A DNA stretch of 64,000 nucleotides, taken from NCBI GenBank assembly GCA_945904015.1, contig CAMDPK010000001.1, forward strand, positions 1 through 64,000. Direction: 5' to 3'. Below, in pieces: positions 1 through 39,503 of the stretch; position 1 is the stretch's first letter, and each line of letters starts with the position of its first letter. The stretch is from Candidatus Kuenenia stuttgartensis (GTDB taxonomy: Bacteria; Planctomycetota; Planctomycetia; Planctomycetales; Planctomycetaceae). A program made the position numbers and the translations under genes. A model generated the notes under the pieces. That model was not told the origin of the DNA. It saw only the letters and a list, made by a program, of their open reading frames with translations, and did no database searches.

Positions 1-2501
<2,501 letters not shown>

Positions 2502-4409: not shown

Positions 4410-7391
4410 ATGACGTCCATCGTTTGCCGCTGTTTGATCGGAGCCGCGCTGAGCCTCTCGGCTTGCGGCTCGCTTCGTGCGGACGAAATTGACGAAGCCT
4501 TCTTCGAGAAGAAGATCCGTCCGGTGCTCGCCGAGACTTGCTTCCGTTGCCACGGAGGGCAAAAGACGAGCGGCCAGTTGCGAGTCGATTCGGCCGAAGC
4601 GTTGTCCAAAGGAGGCGAAACGGGACCAGCCCTCGTTCCCGGTCAACCCGGCGAGAGCCTGCTGCTCAAAGCGATTCGCCGCGAAGAAGGGGTCTCGGCG
4701 ATGCCGCCCGACAAGCCGCTGCCGCCGACGGTCATCGCGGACTTCGAGACGTGGATCAAAGCCGGTGCGAAGTGGCCGGCGAAAGTTGTCGCATTTCGAT
4801 CCGAACAACATTGGGCGTTCGTTGCGCCAAAGGCCGTCTTGCCTCCTCGAGGATCGGCGGCTACCGCGCATCCGATTGATCGTTTTTTGAATTCCGGCGA
4901 ACGAGGTGCCGACAAGCGGACGTTGATTCGCCGAGTCACGTTTGATCTGCTCGGCTTGCCCCCGTCGCCCGACGAGGTTGCTGAGTTTCTTGCCGACGAA
5001 TCTCCGACTGCGTTCGAGCGCGTCATCGAGCGGCTGCTTGCCTCGCCGCATTACGGCGAGAAGTGGGCGCGGCATTGGCTGGATGTCGTCCGCTACGCCG
5101 ACACCGCTGGCGAGACCGCCGACTTCCCCGCTCCGCACGCTTGGCGGTATCGCAACTACGTCATCAACGCCTTCAACGGCGACAAGCCCTATGACGAGTT
5201 CATTCGCGAACAGATCGCGGGGGACTTAATCGTGGGGCACGTTTCCAACGTGCCCGGCCAGCAAACGACGAACAAAGGCGGGCACGTTGAAAACGTGCCC
5301 CACGAGCGGTACGCCGAACTCATCACCGCGACCGGTTATCTCAGCATCGCGCGGCGTTTCGGGTTCGATCTCGATGCCGACCACTTTCTGACGATCGACG
5401 ACACGGTCGATGTGCTCGGCAAGAGCGTGCTCGGATTGAGCATCGGCTGCGCGAGGTGTCACGATCACAAGTACGACCCGATCTCAGCCGCCGATTACTA
5501 CGCCCTGTACGGCATCTTCGAGAGCACGCGGTATCCGTTCCCCGGCTGTGAGAAGTTCAAAGCTCCGCGCGACATGGTGCCGCTGCTGCCGCCCGCCGAA
5601 ATGGAACGCTCGGTCAAACCGCATCTGCAACGCCTGGCCGAATTCGACGCCGAGTTGAAACGGCTCAACGACGGACTCGCCGCCAATCAGCAGCATTTGA
5701 AAGAGGTCTTCGCGAAGAGCGTCCGCGTGCTGGCCCAAGGAGAATTCGACGACGGCGGCTCGCAAGAGATCGCCGGCAAGCCACTCGAACACATCGAAGT
5801 CAAACGGGGCGAGATGCTGCAACTTCTCATTCTGCCGCGGGCACACCACGGCGCGGATAGCACGTTGGTCGAGTTCGAAATCGCCGACGTTGACGGAGCC
5901 GGTCAACGGTGGAATGTGACGCGTGACGTCGTGGAGGATTTCCTCGCCGGGAATCCGCACGCCGATCGTTACGGCAACAAGGCGACGTGGTTCTTCTTCG
6001 ATGCTCGCAACGGCCCGACGCTGCTGCGCGAATCGGTTCAAGACTTCGAAAAGAATGTCGGCCTGAATTTTTGGCGCGCCGGGGACACGCCGTCGGCTTG
6101 GGTCAACGCGAGCGATGCACCGATCAAAGTTTGGGCGACGATGCCACCGAAGACGTTTTATATGCATCCCTCCCAGGACGGCCCGGTCACTCTCGGCTGG
6201 CTCAGCCCGATCAACGGCGTCGTGCGAATCGGCGGCCGAGCGGCCGATGCACACCAAGCTGGTGGAGACGGCGTCGGGTGGCGAGTCGAACACATCAGCG
6301 GCAACGTCGCGGAATCACTGTCCAAACCGCTCGAAGCCGCGCCGAAACTCGCAGAACTGAATCGGCAGCGAGCCGAGTTGCTGGCCGTCGCACCGAAAGT
6401 GGATGTCGCTTACGCCGTCGCCGAAGGACAGCCACGCGACACGAAGATTCATCTGCGCGGCGATCCGAAATCGCTGGGCGATGCGGTGCCGCGACGCTTC
6501 CTGAGCGTGCTCGGCGGACAAACCGTCCCGCCGGATTCCGGCAGCGGCAGGTTGCAACTCGCCGAGTGGCTGACTTCGCGCGACAACCCACTGACCGCGC
6601 GCGTCATGGTCAATCGAATTTGGAAGCATCACTTCGGCACGGGACTCGTGAAGACCCCGAACGACTTCGGCACGCGCGGCGAACCGCCGACGCATCCCGA
6701 ATTGCTCGACTGGCTGGCCGTGCGATTCATGGAGAGTGGTTGGTCGATGAAGGCAATGCACCGGCTGATCGTGACGAGCGAGGCGTATGTAGCTCGGACG
6801 CCTACGTCCGAGCGCCCGGACGTAGGCGTCCGGGCTACGCAACGCCGACGCCTTTCCGCCGAAGAACTCCGCGACGCGATCCTTGCCGTCAGTGGCGACC
6901 TCGACCGCTCGCCCGGTGGGCCGCATCCGTTCCCGGACGAGAAGACCTGGGGCTTCACGCAGCACAGTCCGTTCGCGGCGGTTTACGAGCACGACCGCCG
7001 GAGCGTGTATCTGATGCTGCAACGAATCAAGCGACATCCGCTGTTTGCTCTGTTCGACGGCCCCGACACCGCGACCAGCACGCCCGACCGTTTCACGACC
7101 ACCGTGCCGACGCAGGCTCTGTTTTTTTTGAACGATCCGTTCGTCCATGCGAAGTCCGAGAGTCTCGCTCGCCGGCTGCAATCGCTGTCCGAAGAGCAAC
7201 GCTTTGACCGAGTCTTCGCGCTGTTCTTCAGCCGACCGGTCACATCGGACGAACGTGACGTCGCCCGGCAATTCTTGTCCGACTATCAGCGCGACTTGGC
7301 CGACCTCCCCGCAGCCGAGCGTCCCGTTCAAGCCTGGGCCGCATGGCTGCGAGTCCTGCTGAGCAGCAACGAATTCTTGTACGTCGATTGA
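4410..7391 (+). CDS. PSCyt1/DUF1549/DUF1553 cytochrome-like protein
   Basis: 993-residue exported protein. The start is ATG 4410, preceded by AGGGGAT and followed by a signal peptide (MTSIVCRCLIGAALSLSACG); an upstream TTG start would add residues derived from the short repeat at 4311. Order of parts: c-haem motif CFRCH near residue 44, a linker, DUF1549 (RRVTFDLLGLPPSP, HYGEKWARHWLDVVRYAD), a second haem motif in CARCHDHKYDPI near residue 349, a beta-sandwich-like middle (TLGWLSPINGVVRIGG), then DUF1553 (RVMVNRIWKHHFGTGLVKTP). The DUF1501 gene follows after about 10 bases, so the two are co-transcribed. Two palindromic elements are read in frame, at residues about 274-299 and 794-810. The enzymatic role is unknown. 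Confidence 0.92.
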   Translation: MTSIVCRCLIGAALSLSACGSLRADEIDEAFFEKKIRPVLAETCFRCHGGQKTSGQLRVDSAEALSKGGETGPALVPGQPGESLLLKAIRREEGVSAMPPDKPLPPTVIADFETWIKAGAKWPAKVVAFRSEQHWAFVAPKAVLPPRGSAATAHPIDRFLNSGERGADKRTLIRRVTFDLLGLPPSPDEVAEFLADESPTAFERVIERLLASPHYGEKWARHWLDVVRYADTAGETADFPAPHAWRYRNYVINAFNGDKPYDEFIREQIAGDLIVGHVSNVPGQQTTNKGGHVENVPHERYAELITATGYLSIARRFGFDLDADHFLTIDDTVDVLGKSVLGLSIGCARCHDHKYDPISAADYYALYGIFESTRYPFPGCEKFKAPRDMVPLLPPAEMERSVKPHLQRLAEFDAELKRLNDGLAANQQHLKEVFAKSVRVLAQGEFDDGGSQEIAGKPLEHIEVKRGEMLQLLILPRAHHGADSTLVEFEIADVDGAGQRWNVTRDVVEDFLAGNPHADRYGNKATWFFFDARNGPTLLRESVQDFEKNVGLNFWRAGDTPSAWVNASDAPIKVWATMPPKTFYMHPSQDGPVTLGWLSPINGVVRIGGRAADAHQAGGDGVGWRVEHISGNVAESLSKPLEAAPKLAELNRQRAELLAVAPKVDVAYAVAEGQPRDTKIHLRGDPKSLGDAVPRRFLSVLGGQTVPPDSGSGRLQLAEWLTSRDNPLTARVMVNRIWKHHFGTGLVKTPNDFGTRGEPPTHPELLDWLAVRFMESGWSMKAMHRLIVTSEAYVARTPTSERPDVGVRATQRRRLSAEELRDAILAVSGDLDRSPGGPHPFPDEKTWGFTQHSPFAAVYEHDRRSVYLMLQRIKRHPLFALFDGPDTATSTPDRFTTTVPTQALFFLNDPFVHAKSESLARRLQSLSEEQRFDRVFALFFSRPVTSDERDVARQFLSDYQRDLADLPAAERPVQAWAAWLRVLLSSNEFLYVD
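5231..5304. repeat. intragenic palindromic element, CGTGGGGCA type
   Basis: Two 25-base arms (5231-5255, 5280-5304) are inverted with one mismatch, around a 24-base spacer. Each arm forms its own hairpin (GGGCACGTT ... AACGTGCCC). It is translated in frame inside DUF1549 as GHVSNVPG ... GGHVENVPHE. The same family occurs at 18836 and 46887. Confidence 0.9.
6789..6838. repeat. intragenic palindromic element, GTAG type
   Basis: GTAGC at the left and GCTAC at the right enclose two inverted copies of CGGACGCCTACGTCCG. It is read in frame in DUF1553 as VARTPTSERPDVGVRAT. A closely related element sits at 19666-19725. Confidence 0.88.
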
Positions 7392-7401
7392 GGTGATCCC
7401 C

Positions 7402-8805
7402 ATGTGCTGTGAACCGGTCCTCTCAACACGTCGCGGCGTGCTGCAATCTGCTGTCGCTGGATCGTTGCTCTGGCCGGGTATCGTGTCGCAGTTGCTCGCC
7501 GACGACTCGGCGGCGGATCCGCTGGCATCGCGGCCCGCCCATCACGCGGCGAAGGCGAAGAACGTGATTTTCCTCTTCATGAGCGGCGGTGTTTCGCACG
7601 TCGATACGTTCGATCCAAAGCCGCGATTGCACGCGGACGTCGGCAAGCAAGTCGTGCTCGATCATCCGGAGACTCGCAATCGACCGGGCTACGAAAAGCT
7701 GTTCCTCAAGCGTCCGCAATGGGAGTTTCGTCCGCACGGCGAATGCGGCACCGAGGTCAGCACGCTGTTCCCGCACGTCGCAGAGTGCGTGGACGACATC
7801 GCGCTGATTCGGTCGCTGCACTGCGATCACTCGAACCACTACAACGCGACGCTGGGGATGCACACGGGTTCGTTCAATCAAGCGCGGCCGAGCATCGGGT
7901 CGTGGGTCAGCTACGGACTCGGCAGCCCGAACAACAATCTGCCGTCGTTCATGGTCATCGCGCCGCACTCGCCGTATGCCGGCGGGCAAGTCTGGGCCAG
8001 CGATTTTTTGCCGGGCAGTCATCAGGGAACGCTGGTCGTTCCCGGTGCGGAGCCGATGCGAAACATCAAGCCGCGCGTCTCTTCGCCTCGGCAACAGCGC
8101 GAACTCGCCGCACTGGCCGATATGAATCGGCGGCATTTGGCCGAGCGGGGCAACGATCCCGCGCTGGCCGCTCGCATCCGTTCGTTCGAGACGGCGTTCG
8201 GAATGCAGATCGCCGCACCCGAAGCGTTCGATCTGTCAAAGGAAACCGACGAGACGCTCGCCCTGTACGGCCTGCCGCGCGGCAGCACGAGCGGATTCGC
8301 GTGGCAGTGTCTCGCGGCGCGGCGGTTGATCGAACGCGGAGTCCGGTTTGTCGAGTTGATCGACACCGGATCATCCGGAAATTGGGATTCGCACGGCGAC
8401 ATGCTGGATCACGTCCGGTTGGCCAAGAACGTCGATCAACCGATCGCGGGTTTGATCAATGACCTCAAGCGGCGCGGACTGCTCGACGACACGCTGATCG
8501 TCTGGACGACCGAGTTCGGCCGCACGCCGTTCAACAACCTCGCCGACGCGAAGGGCCGCGAGCATCACTCCTGGGCCTTCTCGTCCTGGCTGGCCGGCGG
8601 CGGCACGAAAGGCGGAATGGTCCACGGATCAACCGACGAGCACGGCATCCGCGTTGCTGAAAATGGCGTCCACGTCAATGACTTTCATGCGACGATTTTG
8701 CATCTGCTGGGACTCGATCACACGCGGCTGACCTACCGCTACGCCGGACGCGACTACCGGCTGACCGACGTTGCCGGCCGAGTCGTTACCGAAGTGCTGG
8801 CCTGA
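7402..8805 (+). CDS. DUF1501 family protein, Tat-exported
   Basis: 467-residue member of DUF1501 (alkaline-phosphatase/sulfatase-like fold, function not established). ATG 7402 is preceded by GAGGTG with six-base spacing; a GTG at 7393 would place the ribosome-binding site inside the gene. The N-terminus has a twin-arginine type signal (STRRGVLQSAVAGSLL). Family phrases follow: NVIFLFMSGGVSHVDTFDPKP, HGECGTEVS and TEFGRTPF. The C-terminal DFHATILHLLGLDHTRLTYRY is typical of the family. The gene is immediately downstream of the PSCyt1 gene and forms the common planctomycete pair with it. Confidence 0.92.
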   Translation: MCCEPVLSTRRGVLQSAVAGSLLWPGIVSQLLADDSAADPLASRPAHHAAKAKNVIFLFMSGGVSHVDTFDPKPRLHADVGKQVVLDHPETRNRPGYEKLFLKRPQWEFRPHGECGTEVSTLFPHVAECVDDIALIRSLHCDHSNHYNATLGMHTGSFNQARPSIGSWVSYGLGSPNNNLPSFMVIAPHSPYAGGQVWASDFLPGSHQGTLVVPGAEPMRNIKPRVSSPRQQRELAALADMNRRHLAERGNDPALAARIRSFETAFGMQIAAPEAFDLSKETDETLALYGLPRGSTSGFAWQCLAARRLIERGVRFVELIDTGSSGNWDSHGDMLDHVRLAKNVDQPIAGLINDLKRRGLLDDTLIVWTTEFGRTPFNNLADAKGREHHSWAFSSWLAGGGTKGGMVHGSTDEHGIRVAENGVHVNDFHATILHLLGLDHTRLTYRYAGRDYRLTDVAGRVVTEVLA

Positions 8806-8881
8806 TGCAGATCTTTCCAAGCTGTCAGACAAAAACGCCGGTCTCAACGATCAATCCACGTGCAGCCCATCGTTCTGCCCC

Positions 8882-8914
8882 CATCGTTCTGCCAACTCTC
8901 TTGGCAGAACGATG
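8882..8914. repeat. perfect hairpin before the 8925 gene
   Basis: A 14-base stem (8882-8895 with 8901-8914) closes a five-base loop CTCTC. The left arm phrase CATCGTTCTGCC also occurs just upstream as a direct copy (about 8867-8878). It could be a terminator for the DUF1501 gene or a short member of the palindrome family; no clear T-run follows. Confidence 0.6.
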
Positions 8915-8924
8915 AGACATTCCA

Positions 8925-10553
8925 ATGCGGTTATTTCTCACAGGACGCTCAATCATGTGCATCACAGCGGCACGACATTCGATCGGATTCGCGGCGATCA
9001 TCGGGATCGTCATTTCAAGCTGGTGTCTGGCTCAAGGGGACAAAGCCGAGAAGGCGAAGCCGAAGGTTGCTCCCCCGAAGATCACCGTCTCAAAAGAAAC
9101 GACGTGGGCCACAGAGCCTCTGCGAGCGGACGGAACAGTCGATTATTTGGAGGCGGTCAACCGCCGCTTCAGCAAAGACGTCACGCCGGAGAACAACGCG
9201 TGCATCGTGCTGTATCAGGCGATGGGGCCAAGCCCCGAAGGAAAGCGGCAGCCGGACAGTTTCTTCCGCAAAATGGGGGTCGAGCCGCTGCCGGACGAGG
9301 GGACGTATTATCGCGATCTGGGCAAATGGGTTCGGGATCGGCCGGATGCTCCCAAGGACGTCAACCTGGTGTTTGACATGCAGTCGAAGTCCGGCGAGCG
9401 GCCTTGGACGAAAGCGGAATTCCCGTTGATCGCCGGGTGGCTCAAGGACAACGAAGTCCCTTTGCGGACAGTGACCTTGGCCATGGAACGGACGAAGTAT
9501 TTCTCGCCACTGGTTGGCTCGGACGCGGAGCCGGACGCTGCATTGATCGCGGTCTTGTTGCCAGGCGTGCAGAAATCGCGTGAGTTCGCCCGCGCTTTGT
9601 CCTCGCGAGCGATGTGGGAATTGGCCGAAGGGAGCCAGGTCGATGCGTGGCGCGACTTGATGACGACGCATCGGCTCGGCCGGCTGGTCGGGCAAGGACC
9701 GACGCTGATCGAGTTCCTCGTCGGTGTCGCGATTGAATCCATCGCCATCCGGGGTGAGCTGCAATTTCTCTCCGAAACGAAACCGTCGGCGAAGATGCTG
9801 GCGCTGTACCGCAAACAACTCGACCGCCTGCCGCCGCGAGCGTCCGTGGCGGACAAGCTCGACTCCTGTGAGCGAGCCATGTTCCTCGACTGTGCTCACC
9901 GCATGGCTCGCGGTCAGTTGAGATTACAAGATCTCGCTGATGGAGGCGGCGACGTTTCGTTCCTCGAAAAGCTGGCCGAGGGAGCGATCATGCAGTCAGT
10001 TGATTGGGACGTGGCGCTCAAGTCGGCCAACAAGTGGTACGACCGGCTGGCGGTGACACTTCGCAAGCCCGACTACCGCGAACGTACCGCCGAGTTGAAA
10101 CAGTTCAACGAAGATCTCAAAAAACTGGTCGAGGAAAACCGAGGCCCGGGAGTGTTGCTGGCGCTGCTCGGAGGAAAACCAGCGATCACGCAGACGATGT
10201 CCGACGTGTTGATCTCGCTGTTGCTTCCCGCCGTACAGCAAGTGGGAGTTGCCGAGGGCCGTGCGATCCAAAAAATGCGGAATCTGGAACTCGCATTCGC
10301 ACTCGAAGCGTACCGAACCGATCACGGCTCGTACCCCGATTCATTACAGCCGCTCGCTCCGAAATTTATTGCCGAGATCCCGAACGACCTCTTCAACGGC
10401 CAACCGCTGAAGTACGCCAAGACAGCCGAGGGCTATCGCTTCTACAGCGTCGGCGACAACGAGCAGGACGAAGAAGGCCGCAGCTTCGACGACAACCCGC
10501 GCGGCGATGATCTGGTGGTACGGATGCCGATGCCGAGGAAGGAAGCCAAGTGA
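8925..10553 (+). CDS. exported protein of unknown function
   Basis: 542 residues from ATG 8925; an alternative ATG at 8955 gives a more compact signal peptide (MCITAARHSIGFAAIIGIVISS). I do not recognise a named domain in the N-terminal part. The last 120 residues (KMRNLELAFALEAYRTDHGSYPDSL ... LFNGQPLKYAKTAEGYRFYSVG) look like the C-terminal segment often found in planctomycete proteins related to type II secretion pseudopilin-like tails. The protein is rich in charged residues and has no further membrane segment. A palindromic element begins one base after the stop codon. Confidence 0.75.
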   Translation: MRLFLTGRSIMCITAARHSIGFAAIIGIVISSWCLAQGDKAEKAKPKVAPPKITVSKETTWATEPLRADGTVDYLEAVNRRFSKDVTPENNACIVLYQAMGPSPEGKRQPDSFFRKMGVEPLPDEGTYYRDLGKWVRDRPDAPKDVNLVFDMQSKSGERPWTKAEFPLIAGWLKDNEVPLRTVTLAMERTKYFSPLVGSDAEPDAALIAVLLPGVQKSREFARALSSRAMWELAEGSQVDAWRDLMTTHRLGRLVGQGPTLIEFLVGVAIESIAIRGELQFLSETKPSAKMLALYRKQLDRLPPRASVADKLDSCERAMFLDCAHRMARGQLRLQDLADGGGDVSFLEKLAEGAIMQSVDWDVALKSANKWYDRLAVTLRKPDYRERTAELKQFNEDLKKLVEENRGPGVLLALLGGKPAITQTMSDVLISLLLPAVQQVGVAEGRAIQKMRNLELAFALEAYRTDHGSYPDSLQPLAPKFIAEIPNDLFNGQPLKYAKTAEGYRFYSVGDNEQDEEGRSFDDNPRGDDLVVRMPMPRKEAK

Positions 10554-10554
10554 A

Positions 10555-10670
10555 TTTGGACTGCGGTGACCTGAGTCACCGCTTTTCAAAACGCTGGGAT
10601 GACAACTGCCACGTCGATCTTGTTGATCGCGCGTTTTGGAAAGCGACGGCTTGGGCCGTCGCAGTCCAAA
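10555..10670. repeat. long palindromic element, TTTGGACTGCG type
   Basis: Outer arms TTTGGACTGCG (10555-10565) and CGCAGTCCAAA (10660-10670) are perfect inverted copies. Inside are smaller hairpins (GGTGAC..GTCACC and GCGACGG..CCGTCGC) and a paired CTTTTCAAAACGC / GCGTTTTGGAAAG. It fills the gap between two convergent genes, so it could act as a bidirectional terminator. Confidence 0.8.
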
Positions 10671-10674
10671 AAAG

Positions 10675-12189
10675 CTACGCCAGCATTTCGGTGACGACGT
10701 GGCTGCCTTCCGGGAGCATCGGCTGCGGGCGGCCGACTCGGTCGGGCAACGCGGCGTGCGGGTCGATGCCCAGCAGGTGGTACATCGTCGCCAGCATGTC
10801 CTTCGGCGAAAGCGGATGGTCGGTGACTTCGGCGGCGTGAGCGTCGGTCGAACCGATGACTCGGCCCCTCGCAATGCCGCCGCCGGCAAATTGAGCCGAG
10901 TACGCCTGCGACCAGTGATCGCGTCCGCCGTCTTGAGCTTTGTTGATCTTCGGAGTTCGGCCATGTTCGCTGATGCAGACGACGAGCGTGTCGTCGAGCA
11001 TCCCGCGTCGTTCGAGATCGAGAATCAAACCGGCATACGCCTTGTCCAAGCCGGGGAGCAGTTGATCGACCATGCGCGGGAAGTGTTCGTAGTGCGTGTC
11101 CCACGCATCGCCCGCGAGTCCGTATTCGTCCCAGAAGACCGAGACCAACCGCGTGCCCGCTTCGAGCATTCGTCGCGCGGCGAGACACGACTGACCGAAG
11201 AGCGTCATGCCGTATGACTCGCGCGTCTCCGGCGATTCCTTGCGCACGTCGAGCGCGTCGGCAACCTTCGTCGAACTGATCAGCGAGAATGCCATCTCCT
11301 GCATCTTGCTGTGCGACGTTCCGGCCAGCGAGCGTTCAAGGTCGCGGCGCTGATCCTCGAACTGTTGCAGCAGCGAACGACGACGGCTCATGCGATCGAC
11401 CGTCATGTCTTTCGGTGCGTCTGTCGCGGCCATGCGGAAGTGCGAATCGGGCGTGCAGCCGAGATACGGTTCGAGACCCGTCCACGAGAAACCGGGGCGA
11501 GCCTTTGTGATCTCTTTGGTCCCTTGGCCAATGAACTCGGTCCAGGTCGGGTTGTAGGCACCGCCGAGAAACGCGGCGTACGGGCCGGCTCGGAATGGTT
11601 GATCGACTCGCTGCGTGCTGAAGGGGAACGGCAGCGCGGCGTTCTGCACGAAGTCGCCGAGCTTGCCGCCGCGGCGTTGTCGATCGAAGTATTCGACCAC
11701 CGAGCCGAAGTACGGATGGTGCCGCGGGTCGTTCGGTTCGAGTTCGGCATTCACATCGAGGGCCGACGCGCCGGTCATGGCATACGCGACGCCGTGAATC
11801 GGATGCGGGTGCGTCAACGACCGCACGACGGTCGTGCGATCCATGATCTTCGCCATGTTCGGCAGATGCTCGCAGACATCGCAGCCGGGGAGCGACGTCG
11901 GGATCGACTGCATGGTGCCGCGAATCTCGACCGGAGCGTTCGGCTTCATGTCGAACGTCTCAAGCTGGCTGGGCGAGCCGTACAAAAACAGAACGATGCA
12001 GCGTTTCGCCTTGCCGAACGAGTTGCTGAGTTCGCCCTGCACTCGCGGGCCGTTCGCCGCGTAGGCCGCCTCGTGCGACAGCAGGTTGTCCAAGCCGAGG
12101 CCCACCATCCCCAAACCGCCGACTTGCAGCAGATCGCGCCGCGTCAGGCCGGTACACAATTGGCGGGGATGACTGAGAACTCGCAGCAT
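10675..12189 (-). CDS. DUF1501 family protein without adjacent PSCyt1 partner
   Basis: 504-residue DUF1501 protein. ATG 12189 is preceded by GGAG with eight-base spacing. A twin-arginine signal (LTRRDLLQVGGLGMVGLGL) is followed by the family core CIVLFLYGSPSQLETFDMKP, then VVRSLTHPHPIHGVAYAM, ISEHGRTPKIN and GGRDHWSQAYSAQFAGGG. The C-terminus has DMLATMYHLLGIDPHAALPD. Unlike the other three DUF1501 genes here it stands alone: upstream is a divergent gene and downstream the convergent gene at 8925. The sequence differs clearly from the other three, so it belongs to another subfamily. Confidence 0.9.
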   Translation of the reverse strand: MLRVLSHPRQLCTGLTRRDLLQVGGLGMVGLGLDNLLSHEAAYAANGPRVQGELSNSFGKAKRCIVLFLYGSPSQLETFDMKPNAPVEIRGTMQSIPTSLPGCDVCEHLPNMAKIMDRTTVVRSLTHPHPIHGVAYAMTGASALDVNAELEPNDPRHHPYFGSVVEYFDRQRRGGKLGDFVQNAALPFPFSTQRVDQPFRAGPYAAFLGGAYNPTWTEFIGQGTKEITKARPGFSWTGLEPYLGCTPDSHFRMAATDAPKDMTVDRMSRRRSLLQQFEDQRRDLERSLAGTSHSKMQEMAFSLISSTKVADALDVRKESPETRESYGMTLFGQSCLAARRMLEAGTRLVSVFWDEYGLAGDAWDTHYEHFPRMVDQLLPGLDKAYAGLILDLERRGMLDDTLVVCISEHGRTPKINKAQDGGRDHWSQAYSAQFAGGGIARGRVIGSTDAHAAEVTDHPLSPKDMLATMYHLLGIDPHAALPDRVGRPQPMLPEGSHVVTEMLA

Positions 12190-12380
12190 GATTCAGACTC
12201 CGTGGTCCCGGAAGTTTACGCCCGGAAGCATCAAGGGGCAGCGATGCTATCGGTAGAAATCGGCACCAGCAAGCCGAGACCTGCGGGAAGAACCGGCTGT
12301 GCCGGTCGAGTTCCGCCAATCTGCCGATACGATCCGCCCGACTCGGTGAATTCACGAAGGATCTTGCGGTTGAGCAGTCT

Positions 12381-13766
12381 ATGCCCGAATTCGTCCAACG
12401 TAGTTTGATGCCCGCCTCGGCCGAGGACTTGTTCGCTTGGCACGCTCGCCCCGGCGCGTTCGAGCGGCTGCTGCCGCCGTGGGAACGGATCGAAATCCGA
12501 CACCCGGCCAAGTCGCTCGCGAATGGCGACCGAGCCGAATTGGTCATCCGGATCGGGCCGCTGCGACAACGCATGGTTGCGGAGCACCACGCTCTGTCCG
12601 ATGGCATCGGCTTTCGCGACGAGCAAATTGTCGGCCCGTTCGCGAAGTGGGAGCACACGCATCGAATGACACCTGCCGAGGCCGACGACTCAGCGAGCTG
12701 TCTGGAGGATCGAATCCACTTCGACGCGCCATTCGGTACGATTGGCCGTGTGCTCCTGGGGCGGACAATTCGACGGTCGATCGAACGGACGTTCGCGTAC
12801 CGGCATCGCATCACTGCCGCCGACTTGGCCGCTCACCAGACCGCACAGGAAAAACAAGGAACCCGCTCGATGAACATTTTGGTGACAGGCTCAACGGGAT
12901 TGGTTGGCTCGGCAGTCGTGTCCTTTCTGACGACTGGCGGACACCGCGTCGTGCGACTTGTTCGCCGGGCCGCGCGTGGTCCGGACGAAGTCGAGTGGAA
13001 TCCACACGCCGGCACAATCGACGCCGCGAAGCTGGAAGGACTCGACGCCGTCGTGCATCTCGCCGGAGAGAACATCGCGACCGGTCGTTGGAACGCCGCG
13101 AAGAAAGCCCGCATCCGCGACAGCCGAGTCAACGGGACGCGCGTGCTGAGCGAAGCACTCGCCAAGCTGTCCCATAAACCGCGCGTGCTGGTCGGTGCGT
13201 CGGCCATCGGCTACTACGGCGAGCGCGGCGAAACCGTGATGACCGAAGCGAGCCCGCCCGGTCTGAATTTTCTCTGCAACGTTTGCCGCGATTGGGAAGC
13301 TGCGACGAATCCCGCTCGCGATGCCGGCATTCGCGTCGTCAATTTGCGAATCGGCGTCGTGCTGACTCCGCGAGGCGGCGCGCTGGAGAAAATGTTGCTG
13401 CCTTTCAAACTCTGCGCGGGTGGAGTCGTCGGCACTGGCCGGCAGTTTTGGAGCTGGATCGCGCTCGACGACGTGGTCGGTGCGATTCATCACGCGATCA
13501 CGCACGACGAACTCTCCGGGCCAGTGAACGCGGTCTCGCCAGAACCAGCCACGAACCGCGATTTCACCAAAACGCTCGGCCGAGTGCTCGGCCGTCCGAC
13601 AATCGCTCCGCTGCCAGCGTTCGTCGTGAAGCTGCTCATGGGCGAGATGGGCGAAGAACTGCTGCTGGCCAGCACACGCGTCGTACCGAACCGGCTACAA
13701 GAAACCGGCTATCAGTTTCGGTGCCCAACGTTGGATGGTGCCTTGCGGCATCTGCTCGGTCGCTGA
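12381..13766 (+). CDS. SRPBCC domain fused to TIGR01777-type SDR epimerase
   Basis: 461 residues in two parts. Residues 1-155 form a polyketide-cyclase/START-like SRPBCC fold (FVQRSLMPASAEDLFAWHARPGAFERL; FAKWEHTHRM). Residues 164-461 form an NAD(P)-binding protein of the YfcH/SDR39U1 type (TIGR01777), with MNILVTGSTGLVGSAVV, HLAGENIATGRW, GASAIGYYG and the C-terminal RVVPNRLQETGYQFRCP. The fusion is known in bacteria; the substrate is unknown. An internal ATG at 12870 with an AAGGA nearby could start a separate SDR polypeptide. The gene is divergent from the DUF1501 gene at 12189. Confidence 0.88.
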   Translation: MPEFVQRSLMPASAEDLFAWHARPGAFERLLPPWERIEIRHPAKSLANGDRAELVIRIGPLRQRMVAEHHALSDGIGFRDEQIVGPFAKWEHTHRMTPAEADDSASCLEDRIHFDAPFGTIGRVLLGRTIRRSIERTFAYRHRITAADLAAHQTAQEKQGTRSMNILVTGSTGLVGSAVVSFLTTGGHRVVRLVRRAARGPDEVEWNPHAGTIDAAKLEGLDAVVHLAGENIATGRWNAAKKARIRDSRVNGTRVLSEALAKLSHKPRVLVGASAIGYYGERGETVMTEASPPGLNFLCNVCRDWEAATNPARDAGIRVVNLRIGVVLTPRGGALEKMLLPFKLCAGGVVGTGRQFWSWIALDDVVGAIHHAITHDELSGPVNAVSPEPATNRDFTKTLGRVLGRPTIAPLPAFVVKLLMGEMGEELLLASTRVVPNRLQETGYQFRCPTLDGALRHLLGR

Positions 13767-13776
13767 TCGCGAATCG

Positions 13777-15249
13777 TTACGCGAGCACCTTCTGAACGAC
13801 GTTGCCGCCGACGTCCGTCAGCCGGTAATCGCGGCCTTGGAAGCGGAACGTCAGCCGTTTGTGGTCCAGGCCGAGCAGATGCAGGATCGTGGCTTGCAGG
13901 TCATGTACGTGGACTTGGTCTTCGGTGATGTAGTAGCCGATGTCGTCGGTCTGGCCGATCGACTGGCCGGGCTTCACTCCGGCACCGGCCATCCACATCG
14001 TGAAGGCTTCGAGATGATGATCGCGGCCGGGGAGTTTGTCGCGTGGTTCACCTTGCGGAGTGCGGCCAAACTCGCCCCCCCAGAGGACCAGTGTGTCGTT
14101 GAGCAAACCGCGCTGCTTGAGATCTTTGACCAGCGCGGCGGCCGCTTGATCGGTTTCCGCACAACGATCATCGAGTGCCTTGCCGAGATCGGTGCCGGGG
14201 TTGCCGTGATGATCCCAGTCGGTGTGATAAAGCTGCACGAAGCGGACACCTCGTTCAATCAGCCGCCGCGCGAGCAAACAGTTTCGCGCGAAGCTCGGTT
14301 TCGAGGGGTCTTTCAGGCCGTACATTTCCAGCGTTTCTTTCGTCTCGCTGCCGAGGTTGATGAGTTCGGGAGCGCTCGTCTGCATCCGATACGCCATCTC
14401 GTAGGCCGCGATGCGCGTCGAGATCTCTGGATCGCCGACGAGCTTCAGTCGCTCGGCGTTGAGGTCTTTCACAGTCGAAACGAAATCACCCTGCCGTTCC
14501 TCGGAGACTCCGGCCGGGTTCGACAGATTCAAAATTGGCTCGGCACCGTTGAGCAACGGCACGCCTTGATAACTGGTCGGCAAGAAGCCGCTGGCCCAGA
14601 GCGGTGTCCCGCCGCGCGGACCGCGCGGGCCGCTGTGCATCACCACGAAGCCGGGCAGGCTGTCCGCTGCGCTGCCGATGCCGTACGTCACCCAGGCTCC
14701 CATCGACGGCCGGCCGCTGAAGCGATCGAAGCCGGTGTTCATGTAGAGCTTCGCCGGGCCGTGATTGAAGACTTCAGTCTTCATGCTCTTGATAAACGTC
14801 ACGTCATCCGCGATCGAACCGAGATGCGGCAATGCCTCACTGATCGTCGCGCCGCACTCGCCCCACTGCCGAAATTTTCGCACCGACCCCAGCAGCTTGG
14901 CGTCTTTCTTGATAAACGCGAACCGCTTGCCGGCGACGAACGATTCCGGAATGACCTGCCCATCCATCTCGATGAGCTTCGGCTTCGGAGTGAACAGCTC
15001 AAGCTGGCTCGGCCCACCAGCCATGAACAAGTGGATGACCTGCTTGGCCTGCGCCGGGAAATGCCCGTCGCGCGGAGCCATCGGATTTGTCACGCGCGCT
15101 GAGTCACCGGAGGAACTCGGCACCGGTGCTGCCAGCAGACTGTCCTTCGCCAGCAGCGACGCCAACCCAACCGAGCCGAGACCGACTCCGGTGTTCGCGA
15201 AGAAATGCCGGCGGGTGATTTCTCGGAGATACTGTTGTTCGATGTCCAT
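13777..15249 (-). CDS. DUF1501 family protein, Tat-exported
   Basis: 490 residues from ATG 15249; a TTG 18 bases upstream is possible but less likely. The start is 23 bases after the stop of the PSCyt1 gene at 15273. A twin-arginine signal ITRRHFFANTGVGLGSVGLA is followed by KQVIHLFMAGGPSQLELFTPKP, WGECGATISE, VTFIKSMKTEVFNH and WGGEFGRTPQGE. The C-terminus has DLQATILHLLGLDHKRLTFRFQG. It is clearly homologous to the DUF1501 genes at 7402 and 39507. Second gene of a two-gene operon. Confidence 0.92.
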   Translation of the reverse strand: MDIEQQYLREITRRHFFANTGVGLGSVGLASLLAKDSLLAAPVPSSSGDSARVTNPMAPRDGHFPAQAKQVIHLFMAGGPSQLELFTPKPKLIEMDGQVIPESFVAGKRFAFIKKDAKLLGSVRKFRQWGECGATISEALPHLGSIADDVTFIKSMKTEVFNHGPAKLYMNTGFDRFSGRPSMGAWVTYGIGSAADSLPGFVVMHSGPRGPRGGTPLWASGFLPTSYQGVPLLNGAEPILNLSNPAGVSEERQGDFVSTVKDLNAERLKLVGDPEISTRIAAYEMAYRMQTSAPELINLGSETKETLEMYGLKDPSKPSFARNCLLARRLIERGVRFVQLYHTDWDHHGNPGTDLGKALDDRCAETDQAAAALVKDLKQRGLLNDTLVLWGGEFGRTPQGEPRDKLPGRDHHLEAFTMWMAGAGVKPGQSIGQTDDIGYYITEDQVHVHDLQATILHLLGLDHKRLTFRFQGRDYRLTDVGGNVVQKVLA

Positions 15250-15272
15250 TGGGCAGGTCTCGTTCAAGGAGA

Positions 15273-18200
15273 TTATTCGCGGGTTATGAACTCATCCAAG
15301 TTCAGCAGCACGCGGGCAACAGCGATCCAGGCAGACTTGGCTGGGTCTTTGTCTTTTGGATCGGCGGCGAAGGCGGTGCGCTGAGCGTTCAGGAACTCTC
15401 GCAGTTTTCGCAGTTCCAGATCGGTTGGCGCGCGCGAGTAGCAGAGTTCAACAGCTTGCCATAGTCGCGCGTCGTCGCTGTCAGCGACCGACGGCGGCGG
15501 TGACGGCGGCAGCGGGCCGAACGACATGATTCGATCGGCGAGTCCGACGGCGAACTCGTGGAAGGAACGGTCGTTGGCGAGCGTCAGCGCTTGCAGCGGC
15601 GTGTTTGAACGATTGCGGCGCGTGCAGGTGCCGTTCGCATCGGGAGCATCGAACGTCGGCAGCATCGGGTACGGGCTGCTCCGCCAAAAATACGTGTACA
15701 TGCCGCGGCGATAACGATCGAGCCCGGTGCTCTCGGCCCACGGCTTCTTCTGCTGCGTGACGATGTAGATGCCTTCTGGCTGCGGCGGATTGACTCCCGG
15801 CCCGCCGAGATGCCGAGTCAGCAAGCCGCTGGCCGACAGGCACACGTCGCGAACGAGTTCGGCTTCCAACCGCAGTCGCGATTGCCGAGCCAACAACTTG
15901 TTCGCCGGATCGCGTTCGCGCAGTTCCGGTCGCATGTGCGATGCCTGGCAGTACGTGGCTGACGTGACGATCAGGCGATGCAGACGTTTGAGGGACCAAG
16001 CAGTGGCCGGATTGTTGTGCTGACGGCTGTCGCTCTGCATGAATTCGCCAGCCAGCCAATCCAGCAACTCCGGGTGTGTGGGCGGATCGCCTTGCGTGCC
16101 AAAGTCGTTTTCGGTCGGGACGAGTCCCGCTCCGAAGAACGCTTGCCAGGCGCGGTTGACGGTGACGCGCGCGGTCAACGGGTTGTCGGGTGAGCAGAGC
16201 CACTTCGCGAATTCGAGCCTCGCGGACGCGGCGCGTTTCTTGGCGTCGACGTCTTGCGACAGATGAATCGCCGGCAACACGTCCGGGACGCCCGGTTCGA
16301 CGGCGGCTCCTTTTCGCAGGAAGTCACCGCGGATCATGATGTGTGTCGAGCGCGGCTCTGCCTTCGCCTTCATGACGAGCGTTGTCGGAATCGCCTTGTT
16401 CAGTGCGTCGAGTTGCTTCTTCAAGCCATCCAATTTCTCGGCGAGCGGCTTGCGGCGCGGGTCGGTGTTTTTGAATGCGGTTTGCAGTTGCTCAACCTGC
16501 TGCTTCGAGCGTTTGTCGGTCGGCGTCGCAACGATTTTCTTGATGCTCGCGGGGACCGACAGCACGTCGGCGGATGCTCCGCTGACCGAAATGCGGAAGC
16601 AGCCGACGAGGTAGTTGGGCACCGAATGCAAATGGTGCATCTTCACGATCAGCTTCGTTCCTGACTTTGCGACGATCGGTTCTTTCGGGAAGAAGACCGC
16701 CTCGCGCGGAACGTTCAACATCTCGCCGGAGTTCGGTTTCACGTTGATCGCCCAGCCAGTATTCGGCTTGCCATCAATCGCGTCCGAGACCGGATAGCCA
16801 TCCTGCGAGTGATCGGCGATGGCTTTGACGAGGGGTGAGGGGCGAGGGGCGAGGGGCGAGGACTTGTCACCGTCTTCAACGAGCACTTCAAACTCGCTGA
16901 GTACGAAGTTTCCTTCGGCGCGACCCGGGCCCATCATCGGCAGGCTGGCATGATTCAGCGTTTCGAGACGGATCGCCGTGATCGGAGTGTCGGCCGGCGG
17001 ATCGAACGTGATCGTGTAAACGTCGTTGGCCGGCGTGCTGAAATCGACGAGCAGCGTTGTGCCGTCGATCTTCGTCAGCGTCGCCCCTTTGTCTGTTTTC
17101 CAAACGGTCGGGTCGAGGACCGTCCAGCCCCCTTCAGACTGTGACGCGACCGAGCGTTCCCAATCGGGCAGTCCTTTGAGCAACTCGGCATCGAGTTCTT
17201 TCAGCGGCTTCTCGGCCATCGCGACTTCGGCGTCGAGCCGCTTTTGTTCGGCGAGTTGATCGGCGGACGGAACCGGCAAGCTCGGTTCGTCGCAGTGATT
17301 GAAGACGGCGAAGACCTTGTAGAAGTCGCGCTGCGAAATCGGGTCGAACTTGTGCGAGTGACATTGAGCACAGCCGATCGTCAGTCCCAGCCATGCTGCG
17401 CCGGTCGTGCTGACTCGATCGACGACCGCTTCGACGCGGAACTGTTCTTGATCGGTGCCACCCTCCTCGTTGACCAGTGTGTTGCGATGAAAGCCGGTCG
17501 CGACGAGTTGCTCGGTCGTCGCGTTCGGCAGCAAGTCGCCGGCGAGTTGCTCGACGGTGAATTGATCGAACGGCATGTCGGCGTTGATCGCGTTGATGAC
17601 CCACTCGCGATACTTCCAAACCTGCCGAGCCGAATCAATCGTGAAGCCGTTCGAGTCGGCGTACCGCGCGATGTCGAGCCAATGCCGCCCGTGCCGTTCA
17701 CCATAGGCCGGAGACGCGAGCAGTCGATCGACCAACCGCTCGTAAGCGTCCGGTTCTTGATCGGCGACGAAGTCACGCACCGCATCGGGCGACGGCAGCA
17801 CTCCCAACAAATCCAGACTGAGCCGCCGAATCAGCGTGGAGCGATCCGCTTCTGGCGACGGTGCAAGTCCTTCGCGTTCGAGACGTGCTCGCACGAAGGT
17901 GTCGATGGGATTGAAGAGTGGGGAGTGGCGAGTGGCGAGTGGCGAGTTAGGAACAGTCGGCCGTCGAATTGGCTGGAACGACCAGTGATTGCTTTTGACA
18001 ACCTCGCTCGCCGTGTCGGAGGCCGGCAACTTCGCGCCGCCGTCGATCCACTTCTTGATGAGTTCAATGTCGGCGACCGAGAGTCGTGGCTTCTCATACG
18101 GCATCGCAGTGACGTCGCCTTTGCCGATCAACGCCTGAAACAGAATGCTCTCGTCGCTCTTGCCCGGAACGATCGCCGCGCCGCGATCTCCCCCTTTGAT

Positions 18201-18455
18201 GGCTAGATGACCCAGGTCCAACCGAAAGCCCGACTCGTCTTTGTCCGCCTTGTGACAATCGACGCAGTGCTTGGCGAAGAGCGGTTTGATCTGTTTCTCA
18301 AAGTCGATTGCGCCAGCGTCCGTTGCCGGTTGGTCGGCGGCATCGGCGGTCGGCAGGCCGAGATCGAACGTCGGCGAAAGCGCGCTCATCCCGCAGCAAG
18401 TCAACCACCAGGCCAGCGGCAACAGCACGAGCAACTTGAGCCAACAGGATTTCAT
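15273..18455 (-). CDS. PSCyt1/DUF1549/DUF1553 cytochrome-like protein
   Basis: 1060 residues from ATG 18455, with GGGAG seven bases before. The signal peptide (MKSCWLKLLVLLPLAWWLTCCG) ends in a possible lipobox LTCC. The first haem motif is CVDCH (residues 64-68). DUF1549 contains PIDTFVRARLEREGL and GRHWLDIARYADSNG. The second haem motif is in CAQCHSHKFDPIS near residue 362. A discoidin-like middle part (AIRLETLNHASLPMMGPG) is followed by a charged helical segment and DUF1553 (RVTVNRAWQAFFGAGLVPTENDFG). Two low-complexity repeats are translated in frame in linkers (VPNSPLATRHSPLF and SSPLAPRPSPLVK). It is co-transcribed with the DUF1501 gene downstream. Confidence 0.92.
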   Translation of the reverse strand: MKSCWLKLLVLLPLAWWLTCCGMSALSPTFDLGLPTADAADQPATDAGAIDFEKQIKPLFAKHCVDCHKADKDESGFRLDLGHLAIKGGDRGAAIVPGKSDESILFQALIGKGDVTAMPYEKPRLSVADIELIKKWIDGGAKLPASDTASEVVKSNHWSFQPIRRPTVPNSPLATRHSPLFNPIDTFVRARLEREGLAPSPEADRSTLIRRLSLDLLGVLPSPDAVRDFVADQEPDAYERLVDRLLASPAYGERHGRHWLDIARYADSNGFTIDSARQVWKYREWVINAINADMPFDQFTVEQLAGDLLPNATTEQLVATGFHRNTLVNEEGGTDQEQFRVEAVVDRVSTTGAAWLGLTIGCAQCHSHKFDPISQRDFYKVFAVFNHCDEPSLPVPSADQLAEQKRLDAEVAMAEKPLKELDAELLKGLPDWERSVASQSEGGWTVLDPTVWKTDKGATLTKIDGTTLLVDFSTPANDVYTITFDPPADTPITAIRLETLNHASLPMMGPGRAEGNFVLSEFEVLVEDGDKSSPLAPRPSPLVKAIADHSQDGYPVSDAIDGKPNTGWAINVKPNSGEMLNVPREAVFFPKEPIVAKSGTKLIVKMHHLHSVPNYLVGCFRISVSGASADVLSVPASIKKIVATPTDKRSKQQVEQLQTAFKNTDPRRKPLAEKLDGLKKQLDALNKAIPTTLVMKAKAEPRSTHIMIRGDFLRKGAAVEPGVPDVLPAIHLSQDVDAKKRAASARLEFAKWLCSPDNPLTARVTVNRAWQAFFGAGLVPTENDFGTQGDPPTHPELLDWLAGEFMQSDSRQHNNPATAWSLKRLHRLIVTSATYCQASHMRPELRERDPANKLLARQSRLRLEAELVRDVCLSASGLLTRHLGGPGVNPPQPEGIYIVTQQKKPWAESTGLDRYRRGMYTYFWRSSPYPMLPTFDAPDANGTCTRRNRSNTPLQALTLANDRSFHEFAVGLADRIMSFGPLPPSPPPSVADSDDARLWQAVELCYSRAPTDLELRKLREFLNAQRTAFAADPKDKDPAKSAWIAVARVLLNLDEFITRE
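16829..16862. repeat. short tandem repeat GAGGGGC in PSCyt1 linker
   Basis: About four copies of a 7-8 base unit GAGGGGCG/GAGGGGTG, translated on the minus strand as SPLAPRPSPLV. It lies between the discoidin-like subdomains. Confidence 0.7.
17915..17950. repeat. short tandem repeat GAGTGGC in PSCyt1 linker
   Basis: About four copies of a 7-base unit GAGTGGC, translated on the minus strand as NSPLATRHSPLF. It sits immediately before PIDTF, the start of DUF1549. The unit is close to the one at 16829. Confidence 0.75.
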
Positions 18456-18599
18456 GGACAACTCCCGAAGAAGCGAATCGCGGCGGGACGTTAGGCGGGA
18501 TCAAAACCGATGGTCGCGGAAGGGCCGCATGCTACCATCGGGCCGAAAAGCCTCGCAACGACCGAGTTTCCGCCAAGCCAAGTTATGAAGGGCTGATGT

Positions 18600-19712
18600 G
18601 TGTCCGCAATCCCGCTCGAAACTGCACTGAAGGAGAAATCCCGCGAGCTGGGTTTCGACCTGTGCGGCGTCGCTGCCGCAGTGCGGCCAGACGGATTCGA
18701 CTCGCTGCGCCGCTGGCTGGACCGCGGATTCGCGGGCGAGATGGACTACATCCCGCGCCGCGAGGCGGCTTACGAGCATCCCTCGGGAGTGCTGCCGCCG
18801 GTTCGCAGCGTCGTCATGTTGGCGATGAATTATTTCGTGGGGCAGGTTTCCAACCTGCCCGGCTCATCGCGATCGGACGGGCAGGTTGGAAACCTGCCCC
18901 ACGGTCGGGTCGCCAGCTACGCGCGCGGTTCGCGCGACTATCACGATTTGCTGCGCGAGCGGTTGAAATCGCTCGCCGACTTCTTGCACGAGCAGCGGCC
19001 GGGATGTCGGACTCGCGGTTGCGTGGATACCGCTCCGCTGCTCGAACGTGACTTCGCCAAGCTCGCCGGACTCGGTTGGTTCGGCAAGAACACGATGCTG
19101 ATCAACAAGCGGCTCGGCAGCTTCTTCTTTCTCGCCGCACTGCTGACCGACATTGAATTGTCCCCGGATGAGCCGCATCACACCTCGCACTGCGGCACTT
19201 GCACGCGCTGTCTGGATGCGTGCCCAACCGACGCCTTCGTCGAGCCGTATGTGCTCGATGCGCGAAAGTGCATTTCGTATCTGACCATCGAACTGCGCGA
19301 TCAGCCGATCCCCACCGAGCTGCGATCGCAGATGGGCGATTGGGTCTTCGGCTGCGATGTCTGTCAGGACGTCTGCCCGTGGAATCGCAAAGCTCCGGTG
19401 TCGCGCGAACCAGCGTTCGCGCCGCGCGGGCAGCTTGATCCTGTTGATTTGGAGTGGCTCTTGTCGCTGGATCAAAACGGATTCGAGGACGCCTTCGCGG
19501 GGACTCCGCTACACCGCACCGGCCGTGCGGCTTTGTTGCGCAACGCCGCGATCGCACTGGGGAGTTCGCATGACTTGCACGCTCTACCGGTGCTTGAGCG
19601 TGCATTGCACGATGACGAACCGTTCGTGCGCGAGGCTGCGGAATGGGCGCTGGAGCATGTCGCTCGTAGACCGGACGCCTACGTCCGGTCACTTCCGACC
19701 GACCGGACGTAG
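18600..19712 (+). CDS. queG: epoxyqueuosine reductase
   Basis: 370-residue cobalamin- and iron-sulfur-dependent enzyme that reduces epoxyqueuosine to queuosine in tRNA. The start is GTG 18600, after GAAGGG. Typical parts: LKEKSRELGFDLCGVA, MDYIPRR, the region around Asp142 (CVDTAPLLERDFAKLAGLGWFGKNT), a ferredoxin-like cluster CGTCTRCLDACP (about 199-210), a second cluster CDVCQDVCPWN (about 251-261) and a C-terminal HEAT-like segment. Residues 79-102 (VGQVSNLPG ... VGNLPHG) are not part of the family and come from the palindromic element at 18836. The last 15 residues and the stop come from another element at 19666. Both lie in surface-type positions. Confidence 0.93.
   Translation: MSAIPLETALKEKSRELGFDLCGVAAAVRPDGFDSLRRWLDRGFAGEMDYIPRREAAYEHPSGVLPPVRSVVMLAMNYFVGQVSNLPGSSRSDGQVGNLPHGRVASYARGSRDYHDLLRERLKSLADFLHEQRPGCRTRGCVDTAPLLERDFAKLAGLGWFGKNTMLINKRLGSFFFLAALLTDIELSPDEPHHTSHCGTCTRCLDACPTDAFVEPYVLDARKCISYLTIELRDQPIPTELRSQMGDWVFGCDVCQDVCPWNRKAPVSREPAFAPRGQLDPVDLEWLLSLDQNGFEDAFAGTPLHRTGRAALLRNAAIALGSSHDLHALPVLERALHDDEPFVREAAEWALEHVARRPDAYVRSLPTDRT
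18836..18903. repeat. intragenic palindromic element, CGTGGGGCA type, inside queG
   Basis: Two perfectly inverted 25-base arms (18836-18860, 18879-18903) with an 18-base spacer. Each arm forms a hairpin (GGGCAGGTT ... AACCTGCCC). It is translated in frame as GQVSNLPG ... GQVGNLPH, close to the product of the element at 5231. Confidence 0.93.
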
Positions 19713-19725
19713 GCGTCCGGTCTAC
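19666..19725. repeat. palindromic element at queG 3' end supplying the stop codon
   Basis: Perfect 25-base inverted arms (19666-19690, 19701-19725) with a 10-base spacer; the core is CGGACGCCTACGTCCG. The queG frame enters the first arm and ends at TAG 19710-19712 in the second arm, so the final residues RRPDAYVRSLPTDRT are element-encoded. Confidence 0.92.
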
Positions 19726-27629: not shown

Positions 27630-28009
27630 TGGTCCGTGGGATGTCATCGCCCAGTGAACAGTCACACCGCAGTGGCGAAAGATTCCGCACAACTGCCAGA
27701 GTCGATGGTGCCTCGTGAGAGGGACATCAATTGGGAATTGCGCCGTCTTCGCCGTCAGGATTTTTCGAGGCGTGCGATGACGTGTTGATCTCGACCGCAA
27801 AGCGGTCACAGCCATTAGCCGGTGGTCGCCGCAGGCGCACCACCGGAAGGTCGCCAACAAATCACATTGCATCCCGGAGGGATGCCAGATGGTGAGGTGC
27901 TGGCATCCCTCTGGGATGCGAAAATTCCACGGCATCAAACCGGTGGTGCGCCTGCGGCGACCACCGGCTAATGGCTTTGATCCCTACGGGATCTTTCGAT
28001 TCCTCGCGA
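27630..28009. other. 380-base intergenic region between convergent surface-protein genes
   Basis: No gene was found. Its centre is the composite inverted repeat at 27811-27975; the flanks show nothing I can name. Confidence 0.6.
27811..27975. repeat. composite inverted repeat, CATTAGCCGG type, perfect outer arms
   Basis: Outer arms of 36 bases (27811-27846, 27940-27975) are perfect inverted copies containing GCCATTAGCCGGTGGT. An inner pair (GCATCCCGGAGGGATGCC and TGGCATCCCTCTGGGATGC) makes a second level of symmetry. It is related to 22817-23049. Confidence 0.93.
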
Positions 28010-36210: not shown

Positions 36211-36355
36211 GTAGCAGGCACACTCCGTGTGCCGTCGGATCGCCTCAAAAGATAGCGGGCTGCGGAACGGGACAACATCGAACGCAGATGTTTCCCCATT
36301 CCACAGCCTGCAAATTCGTTCTTGCGGCGGACGGCACACGGAGTGTGCCTGCTAC
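36211..36355. repeat. palindromic element, GTAGCAGG type, long spacer
   Basis: Perfect 26-base arms (36211-36236, 36330-36355) with a 93-base spacer; the arm contains GCACACTCCGTGTGCC. It lies between fur and flgM, one base before the flgM stop region, and its left arm abuts the fur start. Confidence 0.9.
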
Positions 36356-39375: not shown

Positions 39376-39503
39376 ACGTAGCCGCCTCGCTCCCGCGAGG
39401 CGGAGCCAATGCCAGAAGCTCAGCCATTCACGGCACAGCCCAATTGACTTGATTGGGTGCCAACTCGACGTTGCTCTGCCTCGCAGGAGCGAGGCAGCTA
39501 CGT
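39376..39503. repeat. palindromic element, CGTAGCCGCCTCGC type
   Basis: The arms 39376-39401 and 39478-39503 are inverted with a few mismatches and share GTAGC, GCCTCGC and GCGAGGC. A smaller hairpin (CCCAATT..GATTGGG) lies between. It separates the convergent TolC-like and DUF1501 genes. Confidence 0.85.

Follow-up and report, generated by a model that had tools for sequence, protein, structure and literature searches.

In-frame REPINs and the turnover of unrelated families at fixed protein loops in Candidatus Kuenenia stuttgartensis and related genomes

Intragenic elements and their host genes

The first 64,000 nucleotides of contig CAMDPK010000001.1 (positions 1 to 64,000 of the forward strand; assembly GCA_945904015.1, Candidatus Kuenenia stuttgartensis), hereafter the window, carry palindromic elements inside protein-coding genes. 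These intragenic palindromes are REPINs, that is, head-to-head doublets of repetitive extragenic palindromic sequences (REPs) tagged by GTAG or GTGG. A GTAG-type REPIN of 62 nt lies at 814-875 (minus strand), in frame in a PSCyt1-PSCyt2-PSD1 protein and between its PSCyt2 and PSD1 domains; the host gene (3-2501, minus strand), which is cut by the window edge, contains PSCyt1, PSCyt2 and the start of PSD1. Another PSCyt1-PSCyt2-PSD1 protein is encoded at 4410-7391 (plus strand) and hosts two in-frame elements, both on the plus strand: a 72-nt REPIN at 5232-5303, of the family named here GTGG-A, which encodes VGHVSNVPGQQTTNKGGHVENVPH within the PSCyt2 Pfam domain, and a 50-nt GTAG-type REPIN at 6789-6838, which encodes VARTPTSERPDVGVRAT within the PSD1 domain. 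The fourth element, a GTGG-A REPIN of 66 nt (18837-18902, plus strand), is in frame in queG (18600-19712, plus strand; epoxyqueuosine reductase, TIGR00276, 360 bits) and encodes VGQVSNLPGSSRSDGQVGNLPH in a QueG loop between two strands.

Strong inverted repeats are present at all four sites, and the RNA folds of the four elements beat 200 of 200 shuffles (z -7.3 to -9.6). The original prediction placed these elements inside clear genes and stated that they are translated without a stop, which was confirmed: reading through each of them is stop-free, in the three PSCyt/PSD1 sites as well as in QueG. The two copies of CGTGGGGCA are, as it also stated, read in the same phase and give nearly the same peptide (VGHVSNVPG and VGQVSNLPG). 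An orthologue of the 814 element was found in the same-genus genome G005. A further GTAG-type REPIN, of 60 nt (19666-19725, plus strand), overlaps the end of queG and encodes its last residues and stop codon, which means that in this species a REPIN encodes the tail of QueG.

Each arm of an element is a small hairpin with a GTAG or GTGG head, and two arms face each other over a spacer. The GTRG tag stands beside the short hairpin, and the two inverted REPs together form one long hairpin.

Homologues of REP-associated tyrosine transposases (RAYTs) were found for two families. For GTGG-A, a homologue on contig C229 (L287 1396-2139) has GTGGGGCAGGTTTTCAACCTGCC REPINs on either side; it was found with the model NF047646, with a best score of 74.7 bits for a cut-off of 80, and was missed with PF01797 alone. 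It has PSHLHW and YVEANP motifs, which we take to be the HUH and tyrosine motifs. Its C-terminus, VGQVFNLPG, is encoded by the flanking REPIN in the same phase as in the in-gene copies. The second homologue, on contig C5, is flanked by GTAGCCCTGTCGCTCCGCGACAGG (GTAGCCCTG family), which is the exact REP at both ends of the element at C15:37277, in a ThuA-LamG gene. For comparison with these flanks, the background is 0.67 tagged hairpins per 3.3 kb. Among the Y1/RAYT loci whose flanks were examined, none could be assigned as a RAYT gene to the 814 or 6789 family, and the examined flanks of three IS200-type genes (L009, L010 and L014) held no tagged hairpins.

Genome census and reading frame

The census covered 1.847 Mb of the 7.43-Mb genome and yielded 227 REPINs, or by extrapolation some 900 per genome; a control on the reversed sequence gave 19. 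A pattern search allowing at most 3 mismatches gave 543 matches, against 38 for the reversed pattern. Genic position was called with a codon-usage gene model built for this analysis, in which the called frame ranked first in 98.6% of 1,523 windows from the genome's own called genes. By this model 46 of the 227 REPINs are in frame within genes, among them four more in-frame 50-nt copies of the 6789 element. The automatic in-frame call errs both ways, and the non-genic sets used below therefore include some genic copies. The QueG element itself was missed, because its 240-nt left flank holds a stop, the gene starting 237 nt before the element.

When both flanks are coding on the same strand, the frame is kept in 51 of 74 REPINs (46 open and 5 with a stop) and lost in 23, some of which sit between neighbouring genes; one third would be expected to keep it (p 5e-10). 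This agrees with the selection for in-frame copies that had been proposed from the window.

The original prediction had also reported arm-to-arm lengths of 68, 74, 50 and 68 nt for the four elements, all equal to 2 modulo 3. This is correct for the arms as then drawn; these arms end at different points, and the tag-to-tag lengths (GTRG..CYAC) are 62, 72, 50 and 66 nt, or 2, 0, 2 and 0 modulo 3. Taken by family, the regularity extends to the census. A length of 2 modulo 3 was found in 15/20 in-frame GTAG-headed copies versus 28/87 non-genic ones (p 7e-4), and a length of 0 modulo 3 in 18/20 in-frame GTGG-A copies versus 16/30 non-genic ones (p 0.012); counting the near-constant flanking C..G into GTGG-A turns its 0 modulo 3 into 2 modulo 3. 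Four more GTGG-A copies have shifted flanks and two contain an in-frame stop. Mixed lengths outside genes, as claimed earlier, were recovered, the non-genic copies being spread over all three length classes (31/28/28 for GTAG and 16/7/7 for GTGG-A).

The phase that gives VGQV.NLP (or VGHV.NVP) is used by 19 of the 20 in-frame GTGG-A copies, and the consensus arms, as read from their sequence, are stop-free in all three phases. The flanks of the 30 non-genic GTGG-A copies prefer WC^GW, which predicts this phase (phase 0) at 57% of coding positions; the excess of in-frame copies over this target effect has a p of 2e-4. Among GTAG-headed copies, 15/20 are in the same phase, and one of the two other phases reads the tag as TAG.

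Comparison with related genomes

For each site, the syntenic stretch was compared in up to eight genomes of the genus. At in-frame sites, 99 of the 102 comparisons with a non-zero length difference give a multiple of 3, versus 71/152 at sites not called genic (some of which are actually genic) and 11/16 at sites scored as shifted. For the three PSCyt sites together with MnmG and GluRS, placement worked in 32 of 33 cases (the exception being MnmG in G006); six placements showed no difference in length, and the non-zero differences of the other 26 are all multiples of 3. The 814 site contributed nine placements, three with the same family and six with shorter non-palindromic sequence, all differing in length by multiples of 3. 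Judged by eye, the sequence at this site in some other species is tandem-like and not palindromic.

Twelve in-frame elements of the genome were compared with relatives, family labels being read by eye from the arm sequences. An unrelated palindrome was present in at least one same-genus relative at eight of these twelve sites (QueG, 5232, 6789, C2:67915, C2:69494, C2:70280, C15:37277 and MnmG), which were not a random choice, as they come from two element-rich 20-kb stretches and the window's own sites, plus MnmG and GluRS picked by hand. From the density in 257 kb of relatives, 0.023 in-frame REPINs would be expected per site with seven relatives, an expectation that is somewhat low because only tagged REPINs were counted. 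In relatives, three of the twelve sites yielded no unrelated palindrome or repeat: C15:33482 and GluRS, where only the same family was seen, and C15:35117, where the result was not clear. Outside the twelve stand C15:35895, scored as shifted, and sites where only relatives have an element.

QueG proteins of several same-genus species are 71-92% identical, and their loop is variably occupied: GTGG-A in the window and in the nearest relative, and a GTAGCTCGGACG REPIN, a GGTTGGGCACTCTTGCCC palindrome or a GGCGAGGCTCCCGCCGAGCC palindrome in other members of the genus. QueG linkers were parsed in 55 of 81 planctomycete loci. The peptide appears only in the genome's own copy and the nearest relative among these 55, in agreement with the earlier statement that the insert is absent from the family core. 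Eight of the linkers hold palindromes scoring at least 13, with eight different arm sequences as read by eye. Such palindromes occur in 2 of 432 control windows (p 6e-7 versus the QueG linkers), which were fixed at a length of 100, the linkers ranging from 39 to 201, and were drawn from bases 5400-5900 of the loci, which are mainly C-terminal QueG sequence and in some loci other DNA.

At C2:69494, in a molybdopterin oxidoreductase gene, five species carry elements of four families at a single site, which is empty in three others. The MnmG site holds a GTGG-A REPIN in the genome itself, a 27-nt single REP in G009, GGCCGATGGCC-type repeats in G002, G003 and G004, CCGACAG tandem repeats in G005, a heptamer palindrome in G007 and CAAATCT repeats in G001, the variants of all eight species being in frame. 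The 5232 and 6789 sites were compared with four relatives each. At 5232, G006 has another palindrome family, G003 is without a single REP or palindrome, and G005 and G009 retain a 27-nt single REP, which is 45 nt shorter than the REPIN and preserves the frame; at 6789, G006 has a heptamer-type palindrome.

In GluRS, a 57-nt REPIN (L086 3882-3938) occupies the place of exactly 18 nt present in five species, and its net length effect differs from the element length because these native nucleotides are replaced. Exact insertion boundaries could not be fixed, since the empty sites in relatives vary in their flanking codons and the GluRS element takes the place of native sequence, which precludes a firm conclusion about target duplication. 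Near this REPIN the GluRS of the genome resembles that of G002, G004 and G007 (relatives in L271-L278) and not that of G005, which is otherwise closest, a pattern of sequence likeness that suggests gene exchange within the genus.

Between species, the ratio of nonsynonymous to synonymous differences (pN/pS) is 0.76 for element codons versus 0.16 for the rest of the genes (eight comparisons, six genes). The position of an insert in the protein was modelled at one site, QueG. In an AlphaFold model built from 48 sequences (mean predicted local distance difference test score, pLDDT, 89.9), which matches solved QueG structures with a template modelling score of 0.84, residues 81-100 have a pLDDT of 59-60 and are predicted to fall between strands 70-77 and 101-104. 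In this otherwise confident model, which was among the checks proposed at the outset, the element thus appears as a low-confidence loop and fills a probably disordered loop inside the Pfam QueG_DUF1730 region.

A separate arrangement was seen near position 35,950 of C15 (minus strand; L113 about 15,950). The ThuA-LamG open reading frame (ORF) ends there in GCA AAA AAA AAG TAG, and coding goes on in the -1 frame as a DUF6797-cytochrome c ORF. The A9-GTAG sequence is present in 10/10 same-genus loci examined, with palindromes of several families directly behind it, and resembles a dnaX-type slippery site. The two ORFs may be two adjacent genes; a fusion was not seen in two homologues outside the genus.

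Other elements in the window

A GTGG-A REPIN at 46888-46943 lies between the called genes 45206-46774 and 46946-48223 and was automatically called in frame with a stop, and a GTAG-type REPIN at 53543-53607, at the junction of the called genes 52986-53546 and 53624-55552, was scored as shifted. Longer palindromes with GTRG ends (124-145 nt) are located at 27822-27964, 36211-36355 and 39378-39501, the first holding another palindrome nested in its spacer. The region 42180-42295 is a palindrome of heptamer repeats of the GGTTGAG type. Similar heptamer palindromes are found at in-gene sites in relatives, and they are perhaps a second element class colonising the same loops.

Discussion

Our explanation, to which we give a probability of roughly 0.85, is that REPIN copies survive in genes only when they are compatible with the frame, free of stops and placed in a suitable loop, and that unrelated families turn over at a few loops. 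The facing REP pairs, each REP a GTAG or GTGG hairpin, would move as single strands through RAYT-type Y1/HUH transposases whose genes lie at other places in the genome, and copies would land at many places. A genic copy would survive if the net change is a multiple of 3, if its reading phase is stop-free and if it hits a loop that tolerates extra or replaced residues; because such loops would be few, the same ones would be hit repeatedly by unrelated families. Inserted copies would later be trimmed (from a REPIN to a single REP, with loss of native residues) or overwritten, and the encoded peptides would mostly be filler. The movement of these copies by RAYTs, the stepwise chemistry of insertion and the continued activity of the host proteins are parts of this scheme that we infer. 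Multiples of 3 prevail at in-frame sites (99/102 and 26/26) compared with those not called genic (71/152), and the in-frame pattern is therefore considered to be mainly a survival filter and not an insertion rule.

Several points weigh against this explanation. Neither an insertion event nor expression was observed, and none of the seven matches to NF047646 reached its cut-off of 80 bits, the best having 74.7. The pN/pS of the elements rests on only 71 differences. In orthologous elements of the same length, arms differ by 9% and spacers by 29% (genic and non-genic elements pooled, several pairs counted in both directions), and synonymous divergence is 0.147 in elements, below the 0.394 of their hosts. 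Element peptides evolve nearly freely while hairpin arms change slowly; the slow arms and the low synonymous divergence are not predicted by pure filler, and the hairpin may thus be constrained, homogenised or younger than the species split. Three of the 102 comparisons, all at the genic site C2:69494, are not multiples of 3, and are probably projection errors. The comparisons are moreover non-independent, as they involve few sites with shared ancestry, count some pairs from both partners and use no species tree, so that the p-values are indicative only.

The frame-compatible insertion rule that had been offered as an alternative to selection would have elements always enter in one codon phase with a net change of 3n, genes being spared mechanically. 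The phase 0 reading of 19/20 in-frame GTGG-A copies speaks for it, as does the WC^GW preference of the 30 non-genic copies, which alone predicts that phase in 57%, but non-genic copies span all length classes (31/28/28 and 16/7/7), a phase excess is left beyond the target effect (p 2e-4), and the GluRS element, replacing 18 native nucleotides, has a net length that is not its own. Such a rule is thus very unlikely, and a shade less credible still is the domestication of the peptides, retained by the host for a useful role (binding or spacing, for example): many genes contain VGQVSNLP and the RAYT itself ends in VGQVFNLPG, yet orthologous sites have unrelated peptides or none, and pN/pS within elements is 0.76.

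Selection for an in-gene mRNA or DNA hairpin, for instance for translation pausing between segments, would account for the often palindromic nature of the different families at one site and for arms that change three times less than spacers. Several species, however, have no hairpin at the same site, pairing has decayed in some copies (for instance the QueG copy of G005 and single-REP remnants), and homogenisation among many copies also predicts low arm divergence, which leaves this explanation improbable. We consider equally improbable a shared ancestral insertion, in which one old element has diverged into the different sequences now found at a given site. It is favoured by C15:33482, where several species have a same-family element with the same boundaries and diverged arms, and also GluRS, where four species share one family at one place; elsewhere the tags, arms, lengths and repeat type are wholly different though the flanks still align, and empty forms occur. 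A single ancestral element was accordingly rejected as the general cause for most sites. It is also conceivable, though doubtful, that a few protein loops are reusable docking sites, the existing hairpin or loop DNA drawing the next element, with REPINs and other palindromes succeeding each other on the spot through RAYT-driven exchange or recombination.

GTAG REPs inside ORFs, head-to-head dimers with a variable spacer and several families per genome have been described (Di Nocera 2013, PMC3733652; Bertels and Rainey 2011, PMC3116915). Intragenic copies were reported, among them most GTAG ones in Opitutus terrae, where a GTGG variant also occurs; Planctomycetes are named as carriers, flexible linkers or loops were suggested as the insertion place of genic REPs, and recB is cited as a single example in which two Xanthomonas species have different REPs at nearly the same position (PMC3733652). 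REPINs were defined in Pseudomonas fluorescens SBW25, where they are almost wholly extragenic, 14 of 1,067 16-mers overlapping genes (PMC3116915), and RAYT genes are flanked by REPs (PMC6006769). The elements analysed here share with these systems the tag, the short hairpin, the head-to-head dimer, the variable spacer, the several families and a RAYT flanked by a matching REP; they differ by a larger in-frame share (46/227 called) and by unrelated families replacing each other at fixed loops in several genes.

The original prediction had compared the elements with Rickettsia palindromic elements (RPEs), a comparison that stands only for their behaviour. RPEs are found as in-frame copies in unrelated genes, with a conserved peptide per element and solvent-exposed positions (PMC3767692, PMC10969869); RPE fusions have been reviewed (PMC10969869), and different RPE groups lie near each other in orthologous Rickettsia genes, hot spots being left open in that report (PMC3767692). 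In-frame insertion in unrelated protein genes is common to both. RPE-4 and RPE-6 have a CGTC tag, and repeats with this tag seem to have no transposase of their own (PMC3733652), whereas the present elements have GTAG/GTGG tags, a two-hairpin architecture and RAYT genes in the genome. By tag, architecture and transposase association they are REPINs and probably not kin of the Rickettsia RPEs. With IS200/IS605 Y1 transposases and their derived miniature elements they would share the HUH-family single-strand machinery (PMC6006769), from which derived elements they differ as gene-less two-REP units. In-frame REPs are thus already known, and what is new is the turnover of unrelated families at fixed loops, of which no account was found in the searches and excerpts of the open-licence literature; the pattern of survival within proteins is unusually strong and can be tested.

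Ever since they were reported in Rickettsia, in-frame palindromes have posed a puzzle, with an insertion rule, a useful peptide or mere survivors as possible answers. These three can be separated here thanks to an estimated 900 or so elements per genome, to the RAYT genes of two families and to several species of the same genus, and the data favour survivors in few reusable loops. If the loops were docking sites, mobile hairpins would continually supply loop variation to core enzymes such as QueG, MnmG and GluRS. The elements provide a natural map of insertion-tolerant loops in conserved enzymes.

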